51,673 nucleotides of DNA from Spirosoma fluviale (GTDB lineage Bacteria; Bacteroidota; Bacteroidia; Cytophagales; Cyclobacteriaceae): NCBI GenBank assembly GCA_945897085.1, contig CAMDEU010000004.1, positions 1 to 51,673 of the forward strand. Direction: 5' to 3'. The translations under genes and the position numbers were made by a program. The notes beneath the pieces are model-generated. The model saw only the letters and a list, made by a program, of their open reading frames with translations. It had not been told where the DNA came from and ran no database searches. This document shows, one piece after another, positions 35,430-37,426 of this stretch. Numbering within the stretch: the first letter of the stretch is position 1; every line of letters starts with the position of its first letter.

Positions 35430-36383
35430 ATGAAAGTACTGATTGTCGACCAGATGCATGAGAGCATCCTTGGGTTATTGGAAAAGTATGGATTCACTGT
35501 AAACTATGCCCCAAAGATTACTCGAGAAGAACTTTTTGACCAAATTGGTGACTACGAAGGCATTTTGATTCGATCAAAAACACCACTGGATCGTGAATTG
35601 CTCGAGCGTGCCACCCGGCTTCAATTTATTGGAAGGGCAGGAGCTGGTTTAGATCAGTTGGATCTTACCTATTTGGAGGAGCGAGGGGTCGCACTTTTCC
35701 ATGCTGCAAAGGGAAACCGTGATGCGGTGGCCGAGCATGCGGTCGGTGGATTATTGGCGCTATTCAATAACTTAAATCAAGCAGATACTCAGGTAAAAAA
35801 AGGGATTTGGGATAGAGAAGGGAACCGTGGAGTTGAATTGAAAGGGAAAACAATCGGTATTTTCGGGTTTGGAAATATGGGTGAAGCATTTTCCAAGCGA
35901 ATGAAAGGGTTTGGAGTTAAAGTCCTTGCTTACGATAAATACAAAAAAGATTTTGGAAAAAAGGGGATTCAGGAAGTGACTTGGGATACGCTAAAAAAGG
36001 AAGCGGATGTACTGAGCATCCATGTTCCCTTGACACCTGAAACTCGTGATTTTTTTACGCTTGAAGAGCTGAAAAGTTTTGCTAAGCCCTTTTGGTTGAT
36101 CAATACGGCGAGGGGAGAGGTCGTCCGAATGGAAACACTCAATCAGGCCCTTGATCTAGGCATTTTGAAGGGCCTGGTGTTAGATGTGTTGGAGAATGAA
36201 AAGTTTGAGCGATTCAGTCCCGATCAAAAGGTTCAATTTAAAATGCTTTCCAAACGAGAAAATGTACTATTTACGCCTCATGTGGCGGGCTGGACAGTGG
36301 AATCCTATCAAAAAATAAATGAAGTTCTTGTAAAACAAATTCTTCAAACTTTCGGCAAGCAACTCAATAATTTCATCGATTAA
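35430..36383 (+). CDS. D-2-hydroxyacid dehydrogenase (SerA-like)
   Basis: This NAD-dependent dehydrogenase belongs to the D-isomer 2-hydroxyacid family that includes 3-phosphoglycerate dehydrogenase. The Rossmann motif is GIFGFGNMGEAF. Catalytic Arg is in LINTARGEVV, Glu in LDVLENEKF and His in FTPHVAGWT. It lacks the C-terminal ACT domain of E. coli SerA, and at 317 aa is the short form. Phosphoglycerate, lactate or glycerate could be the substrate. ATG 35430 lies 2 nt after mgtE; an earlier TTG (35424) would overlap it. Confidence 0.9.
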   Translation: MKVLIVDQMHESILGLLEKYGFTVNYAPKITREELFDQIGDYEGILIRSKTPLDRELLERATRLQFIGRAGAGLDQLDLTYLEERGVALFHAAKGNRDAVAEHAVGGLLALFNNLNQADTQVKKGIWDREGNRGVELKGKTIGIFGFGNMGEAFSKRMKGFGVKVLAYDKYKKDFGKKGIQEVTWDTLKKEADVLSIHVPLTPETRDFFTLEELKSFAKPFWLINTARGEVVRMETLNQALDLGILKGLVLDVLENEKFERFSPDQKVQFKMLSKRENVLFTPHVAGWTVESYQKINEVLVKQILQTFGKQLNNFID

Positions 36384-36400: not shown

Positions 36401-36430
36401 TTGCTTTGTGAAAATGCTTTCCTATCTTTG
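36401..36430 (+). promoter_or_regulatory. Promoter of greA
   Basis: TTG at 36401-36403, a 19-bp spacer and TATCTTTG at 36423-36430 match TTG-N19-TAnnTTTG exactly. Transcription would start near 36437, upstream of the hairpin at 36452-36485 and about 80 nt before the greA ATG. Confidence 0.65.
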
Positions 36431-36451
36431 TCGAGTATTTAAAGGCAACAG

Positions 36452-36492
36452 AAAGTAACGGTCTCCAAAAAGTGACCGTTACTTTGTTTTTT
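36452..36492 (+). terminator. Terminator/attenuator hairpin in the greA leader
   Basis: AAAGTAACGGTC (36452-36463) pairs perfectly over 12 bp with GACCGTTACTTT (36474-36485), with a 10-nt loop; a G and then T6 (36487-36492) follow. It lies between the greA promoter and the greA ATG (36517), with only 24 nt after the T tract, so greA transcription has to read through it. Confidence 0.8.
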
Positions 36493-36516
36493 GAGCCTTT
36501 TGAAAATTTATAAGCT

Positions 36517-36990
36517 ATGTCAAAAGTACAGTATTACACCGAAGAGGGACTTAAGAAATTGAAAGATGAGCTTCACGCGTTGAAGACAAAAGGGAGAATA
36601 GATATTGCCCATCAGATTGCAGAAGCCCGTGACAAGGGGGATTTGAGCGAAAATGCGGAATACGATGCTGCAAAAGACGCACAAGGACTTTTGGAACTTA
36701 AAATCGCGAAGTTGGAAGAAGTAGTAGGCAATGCACGTGTTTTTGATAATAGCAAAATGGACATCTCCAAGGTGGGAATCCTTTGTACCGTTAAAATTAA
36801 GAATGTCAAGAATGGCATGACAGTTACCTACACCCTCGTATCTGAGGAAGAGGCGGATCTCAAGGCAGGAAAAATATCCCTAGCATCCCCTTTTGGAAAG
36901 GGTTTGGCGGGAAAAGCGGTAGGCGACATCGCTGAAATCAATGCACCTGCAGGGATTGTTCAATTTGAAATTTTGGATATCTCTTTTTAA
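36517..36990 (+). CDS. greA: Transcription elongation factor GreA
   Basis: GreA enters the secondary channel of stalled RNA polymerase and stimulates cleavage of backtracked RNA. The 157-residue protein shows the N-terminal coiled coil (YYTEEGLKKLKDELHALKTK), the acidic tip DKGDLSENAEYDAAKDAQG (Asp and Glu that hold Mg2+), and the C-terminal FKBP-like domain with SPFGKGLAGKAVGD. Its leader contains a hairpin with a T tract, which suggests feedback on its own transcription. The HIT gene follows 43 nt later. Confidence 0.97.
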   Translation: MSKVQYYTEEGLKKLKDELHALKTKGRIDIAHQIAEARDKGDLSENAEYDAAKDAQGLLELKIAKLEEVVGNARVFDNSKMDISKVGILCTVKIKNVKNGMTVTYTLVSEEEADLKAGKISLASPFGKGLAGKAVGDIAEINAPAGIVQFEILDISF

Positions 36991-37033: not shown

Positions 37034-37426
37034 ATGTCTAGTTTATTTTCAAGAATCATTGCTCGAGAACTTCCAGCTGAGATTATTGCCGAAGACGAGC
37101 AGTTCATTGCTTTTTTAGATATTATGCCCTTAGTCAAAGGACATGTCCTGGTAGTTCCCAAGCGCGAGGTATCCTATATTTTTGATCTCGAGCCGGGTGA
37201 ATTATCGAGCCTTCATTTGTTTGCGCAGCAGGTAGCAAAGGCTATGGATAAGACCTTGACTTGTACCCGTATTGGTATGGCAGTGATTGGATTGGAAGTT
37301 CCTCACGTACACATTCACCTGGTTCCTCTCCGAACAGTGGATGACATCAATTTCACCCGTCCAAAGTTAAAGCCGACCCAACAGGAGCTTGCAGATACTG
37401 CCAACTTAATCCGCAAAGGATTTTAA
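37034..37426 (+). CDS. HIT family protein
   Basis: This 130-residue member of the histidine triad superfamily hydrolyses or transfers nucleotides from nucleoside phosphoramidates, Ap4A-like molecules or adenylylated substrates. The triad motif is HVHIHLVPL near residue 95. The N-terminal SLFSRIIARELPAEIIAEDE and FLDIMPLVKGHVLVVPKR are typical of the Hint branch. It follows greA by 43 nt and is probably co-transcribed. Substrate is not decidable. Confidence 0.93.
   Translation: MSSLFSRIIARELPAEIIAEDEQFIAFLDIMPLVKGHVLVVPKREVSYIFDLEPGELSSLHLFAQQVAKAMDKTLTCTRIGMAVIGLEVPHVHIHLVPLRTVDDINFTRPKLKPTQQELADTANLIRKGF

Follow-up and report, generated by a model that had tools for sequence, protein, structure and literature searches.

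The 51,673-nucleotide stretch of Spirosoma fluviale DNA analysed here (assembly GCA_945897085.1, contig CAMDEU010000004.1; subsequently 'the window') carries greA, a gene whose product frees RNA polymerase that has stalled, preceded by a short leader. Judged from its sequence, this leader contains an attenuator-like intrinsic terminator of the greA-leader, or GraL, kind (GraL is the greA leader RNA of E. coli), which probably throttles greA. The favoured explanation, to which a probability of about 0.55 is given, is that greA owns this promoter-proximal terminator and that it acts as an attenuator, the read-through of which is set by negative feedback from GreA. The promoter, the hairpin and its T tract, their order, conservation and covariation, and their association with greA can all be read directly from the sequences compared below.

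The greA leader in the window

All elements of the leader lie on the forward strand, and positions are those of the contig. The promoter has a −33 element TTG (36401–36403), a spacer of 19 nucleotides (nt) and the −7 element TATCTTTG (36423–36430). The latter is of the TAnnTTTG type, with the consensus and the placement at −12 to −5 taken from Flavobacterium psychrophilum (PMC9723704). This placement predicts a transcription start at 36435. The stem that follows is perfect, with 12 of 12 pairs formed between a 5′ arm AAAGTAACGGTC (36452–36463) and a 3′ arm GACCGTTACTTT (36474–36485). Both arms are supported by folding and by covariation, and they enclose a loop of 10 nt (36464–36473) in which one inner pair is possible. 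The T6 tract (36487–36492) is the expected 3′ end of a predicted short RNA, and the greA ATG at 36517 lies 24 nt past its end. Counted from 36435, the stem begins after 17 nt, the U tract ends at +58 and the ATG stands at +83. This arrangement had been proposed in a sequence-only reading of the window and proved exact on recheck. The same reading held that no promoter follows the hairpin, which is borne out for the TAnnTT[T/C]G type: between 36384 and 36530 only TATCTTTG fits, and other promoter types may still fit there.

The stem and T tract together (36452–36492) fold with −16.7 kcal/mol (z −5.55), and none of 200 shuffles is as good; for the whole predicted short RNA (36435–36492) the z score is −4.24, equalled by 2 of 200 shuffles. 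Within the 2.24-Mb draft genome both the stem pattern and the leader are single-copy. By sequence, the element has the stable stem directly followed by a sense-side T tract that characterizes an intrinsic (Rho-independent) terminator, and under the established rules for such terminators transcription would be expected to end at the predicted hairpin and U6.

Distribution of the hairpin before greA

Leaders for comparison were drawn from the best 80 of 592 confirmed places; from the family, where 145 of 148 genomes match (loci from the best 30, then the next 40); from the phylum, where all 198 genomes match (30 loci, 27 of them new, and 40 picked across families); and from further genomes of the same genus and order. 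Leaders sharing the same last 110 nt entered the count as one; the window's own leader is included, and its two repeats are not. Family labels are carried only by loci from the genome searches; for many families there is a single leader, and a few picks (f40 and one of f33) look doubtful. A hairpin was scored in the 160 nt 5′ of the greA ATG when it had a stem of at least 5 pairs with 3 G–C, a loop of 3–12 nt and at least 5 T in the next 8 nt. Dinucleotide shuffles and other genes, taken by a simple open reading frame (ORF) rule from 20 stretches of 20 kb, served as controls.

A hairpin with a T tract is found in 219 of 233 distinct greA leaders (202 of 214 before the last set was added), in at least one leader of 38 of the 42 labelled families and in all 82 leaders of the window's family. 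Under the same rule the background is 85 of 428 shuffled leaders and 39 of 192 other genes. An earlier, cruder scan gave 167 of 172 leaders; the counts quoted come from the second scan. A promoter-like element stands upstream of the hairpin in 155 of 214 greA leaders, compared with 4 of 192 other genes, and 81 of these 155 also have a TTG with a spacer of 18–20 nt (58 of 66 in the window's family set). As the leaders are related, these counts are not independent, and for this reason the change of stem letters, which are wholly different between distant families, is a better argument than the counts.

Four leaders from other classes of the phylum (L183, L184, L185 and L195), belonging to several distant families, have stems of nearly the same letters, CGCCGC..GCC with GGCCGTGGCG.

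For 212 of the 214 leaders a longest-ORF rule identified the nearest upstream ORF. Where it lies on the opposite strand (90 leaders) the hairpin is kept in 83, 64 of them with the promoter too; where it lies on the same strand (122 leaders) the figures are 118 and 90. Control genes with a divergent neighbour have the hairpin in 15 of 82 cases, and with a promoter too in 1 of 82. A tail of at least 6 T in 8 follows the greA-sense side of 187 of 202 hairpins and the antisense side of 47. The terminator thus lies between the greA promoter, recognized by its motif, and the greA start, and appears to be greA's own, as is required of a greA-leader attenuator; the earlier proposal of an attenuator at this place is in this respect well supported.

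Covariation and letter constraint

Covariation was assessed in 74 family leaders, from which rows below 74% greA identity and identical rows had been removed. L142 and L147 were left out, being without the searched [A/G]CGG...CCGT pattern, so that the invariance of the three central pairs is partly a product of selection. In this set 86.6% of cells pair, and 8 of the 12 pairs change on both sides (66 such cells). These are the compensatory changes in relatives' leaders that the sequence-only reading had set as a test. Pairing, two-sided changes and covariation score are reached by none of 500 shuffles and by no slide of the alignment; for further pair types the tally of 22 does not stand out, being reached by 158 of 500 shuffles. 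In 59 of the 74 leaders the stem pair of columns 10 and 40 is not formed. Unguided, RNAalifold predicts 7 of the stem pairs, of which 3 vary on both sides.

A covariance model built from this alignment finds the element directly 5′ of greA, at 44–52 bits, in 12 of 14 further same-genus genomes, some of which may near-copy training loci (L248 repeats L010). The remaining two are both incomplete, and no greA was found in them. In the window and 20 control stretches the reverse strand of the leader scores 31.6 bits and the best other match 24.5 bits. A regulon sharing the stem was considered on account of seven weaker matches (31–36 bits) elsewhere and was rejected; six of these look like ordinary 3′ terminators, since they stand 14–36 nt past the end of a same-strand ORF. 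The seventh, of 32 bits at L276:1505–1556 (reverse strand; G356 contig 28), does not follow closely on a same-strand ORF.

Within the genus the stem and T tract show 97% pairwise identity over 20 leaders. At the same 20 loci the greA coding sequence is 77% identical and its fourfold-degenerate sites 37%; the segment 5′ of the stem is 43% identical and the stretch past the T tract 55%. The −7 element aligns in 20 of 20, as TATTTTTG in one, the leaders having been cut at this motif. Pairing alone would permit more change in the stem than is seen, and the stem letters themselves therefore seem to be selected.

An outer helix may also form between AAAGGC (36441–36446) and GCCTTT (36495–36500) in the predicted fold, where the second arm is uncertain. 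It pairs in 85% of cells in the 20 genus leaders, and by eye exchanged pairs occur in L246 and L008, where the alignment register only partly matches. As its covariation is no better than that of shuffles or slides, it was rejected as a supported structure and is kept as a possible one.

Proposed control of read-through

In the favoured explanation RNA polymerase would start at about 36435 and make about 17 nt of RNA, followed by the hairpin and U6. For some of the polymerases transcription would end there with release of a 58-nt or similar RNA, and the others would continue into greA and perhaps into the HIT-like gene that follows. The fraction reading through would be set at the polymerase by factors acting on a paused or backtracked complex. 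First among these would be GreA itself, and both its negative feedback and the accumulation of the short RNA are proposed by analogy with E. coli GraL.

More tentatively, the arrangement may be ancient and phylum-wide: a minimal terminator would gate greA throughout the Bacteroidota with no RNA switch, and GreA would read its own level through the fate of the early paused complex. Many Flavobacteriaceae terminators would then possibly be complete within about 30 nt of the start, and the near-invariant stem letters would, beyond forming a hairpin, serve as a pause or contact sequence for RNA polymerase.

The main rival is a terminator that responds to neither feedback nor signal: it would reduce greA expression by a fixed factor and shield the gene from transcription arriving from upstream. 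All of the sequence evidence for a terminator fits this equally, as does the failure to detect a switching structure in 64 leaders (see below). Nevertheless, it is rather unlikely: a weaker promoter would suffice for the purpose, yet the arrangement is widely kept; the stem letters of the genus are conserved beyond the need for pairing; and GreA of E. coli does alter read-through of its own leader terminator (PMC6829880).

It is improbable that the terminator is governed by a classical switch, that is by a riboswitch, a leader peptide or an antiterminator, even though an antiterminator has been reported for the greA and rnk leaders shown in PMC2965389 and in 25 of 155 leaders an ATG stands between the inferred start and the core of the stem. 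An antiterminator was looked for in the 64 leaders with a sufficiently close promoter-like element and 12 nt or more of 5′ segment, and none was detected: duplexes of this segment with either arm are no better than those of shuffled segments (mean z 0.08 and 0.19), and the hairpin is at least as strong in every case. In 72 of the 155 leaders the inferred start and the onset of the stem core are at most 11 nt apart. Matches to Rfam are likewise wanting. The window has none, and at 18 loci, with E values up to 0.5, the only leader matches (L017 and L030) are both far under their gathering scores. The inferred RNA is about 59–60 nt long in the family set, with a median of 37 nt in other leaders and 29 nt in many Flavobacteriaceae; these lengths use an inferred start one nt later than that of the antiterminator test. 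There is a weak indication against a conserved seed for base-pairing in trans: the pre-stem segment is 43% identical within the genus and in 72 of 155 leaders measures no more than about 10 nt. RNAs this short leave little room for a ligand sensor or leader peptide and point to control at the level of the polymerase, which is the most likely means of setting read-through because no antiterminator is detectable in the leader.

A 5′ hairpin that stabilizes the mRNA, or a DNA operator, would be very improbable. The near-invariant stem letters of the genus would suit a bound protein, but neither role needs the one-sided T tract described above; the loop, scored at lengths of 3 to 12 nt (the limits of the scan), fits an operator poorly, and the stem letters differ wholly between distant families. 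Least probable of all is the alternative raised in the sequence-only reading, that the hairpin does no more than terminate the dehydrogenase gene upstream: in the window this gene is co-oriented and no other terminator is seen between it and the stem, but a promoter intervenes, and the hairpin is kept before divergent neighbours, which excludes termination of the neighbouring transcript as its general function, although in the window it may have that function as well.

Several observations weigh against the element as described or against the favoured explanation. The scan does not find the feature in 14 of 233 leaders (L015, L021, L058, L075, L157, L165, L178, L198, L200, L204, L207, L218, L257 and L258), although by eye some of these (L021, L165 and L207) do show hairpins outside the rule. 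By the rule used, 47 of 202 hairpins have no promoter-like element 5′ of them. A generic promoter and terminator scan of the window listed neither the promoter nor the hairpin, because it is built for sigma-70 hexamers and loops of 3–8 nt, and here a promoter of the Bacteroidota type is combined with a loop of 10 nt. The pre-stem segment, which matters in E. coli, is weakly conserved (43%), and in eight genomes from other families of the order the covariance model has matches in four, at greA only in G359. Finally, the effect of GreA in E. coli has been observed exclusively in vivo and requires a further, unidentified factor (PMC6829880).

Comparison with known greA leaders

In E. coli, GreA with an active catalytic site reduces read-through of the GraL terminator in cis; that is, it increases termination at its own leader rather than relieving it, and the effect depends on the leader sequence as well as on the terminator (PMC6829880). 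GraL has imprecise 3′ ends and is a small RNA with a dual role in cis and in trans (PMC6829880). As in the window, an intrinsic terminator lies between the promoter and greA, and the geometry is almost identical: 19 nt precede the terminator and the leader is cut at +59, past the U-rich tail, compared with 17 nt and +58 here (PMC6829880). The adjoining gene, dacB, is divergent, as in many of the leaders above. The E. coli leader differs in its stem letters, which are unrelated to those of the window, and in the position of the ATG, at +150 as against about +83. Furthermore, in the leaders examined here it is the stem that is strongly conserved and not the 5′ segment.

Premature terminators before greA have been published for Proteobacteria, Bacilli and Clostridia, with greA in seventh place among the families in which attenuation is frequent (PMC2965389, by Naville and Gautheret, 2010). 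Those leaders were likewise found by genome comparison, and a clear antiterminator is reported for the greA and rnk leaders shown, whereas none is detected in the 64 leaders tested here; control of the GraL type, as described, does not require one (PMC6829880). The strings Bacteroid-, Cytophag- and Flavobacter- are absent from the main text of PMC2965389. In F. psychrophilum, of the same phylum and with the same promoter class as the window leader, 64 structured 5′ regions are reported as likely to be regulatory; greA is unnamed in the main text and may be listed in Table S7 (PMC9723704). For Bacteroides thetaiotaomicron, greA does not occur in the passages of PMC7366714, and in those of PMC10994844 the sole word beginning with 'grea' is 'greater'; PMC8266666 has no bearing on the question. 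Among the open-licence papers listed in searches for it (for two of the searches, 20 of 29 and 20 of 62 matching papers), none reports attenuation of greA in Bacteroidota, and supplements may hold such a report. The Bacteroidota element, apparently very widespread, differs from published leaders of greA in having no detectable antiterminator.

Autoregulation of GreA through a leader terminator is known in detail apparently only from E. coli, where a co-factor is unknown. If a second phylum guards greA by the same arrangement, though with unrelated letters and no antiterminator, early termination would be a general rule for this factor, whether inherited or evolved anew. The leaders of only about 30 nt would also offer a very simple system for how a secondary-channel factor alters termination.

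Genome context and minor observations

The window is contig C4 of a 77%-complete draft genome. Among the 80 best of 592 confirmed places, the closest named relatives belong to the Cyclobacteriaceae, for example Cognataquiflexum, Aquiflexum and Algoriphagus. A D-2-hydroxyacid-dehydrogenase-like gene ends at 36383, 68 nt from the stem, and is followed by the promoter, the hairpin, greA and, 43 nt 3′ of greA, a HIT-like gene (37034–37426). The names of these neighbours, greA excepted, rest on matches under the model cut-offs. greA itself (36517–36990, forward strand) encodes 157 residues with the acidic tip residues D42 and E45, and matches the NCBIfam GreA equivalog NF001263 at 179 bits against a cut-off of 145. 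The tip motif is found in all 237 GreA reading frames checked.

GreA paralogs (25–33% identity) have a leader hairpin in 2 of 7 scanned, near the background rate; L266 and L269, for which a start could not be placed, were left out of the scan. Five of the paralogs, from five same-genus genomes (L261–L265), are GreB-like, with a GDRSEN tip and 29–33% identity to GreA, and in four of the five the scan finds no leader hairpin.

In 28 of 233 leaders a mini-ORF with a stop overlapping the greA ATG lies 3′ of the hairpin. It occurs in Flavobacteriaceae leaders (for example L023, L028, L029, L158 and L160), where it often reads ATG AAG TTA TGA. It might serve translational coupling; alternatively, the start of greA may have been misassigned. 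Away from the greA leader, L214:376–431 (reverse strand) matches the Rfam whalefall-1 RNA at 41.6 bits, above the gathering score of 37.
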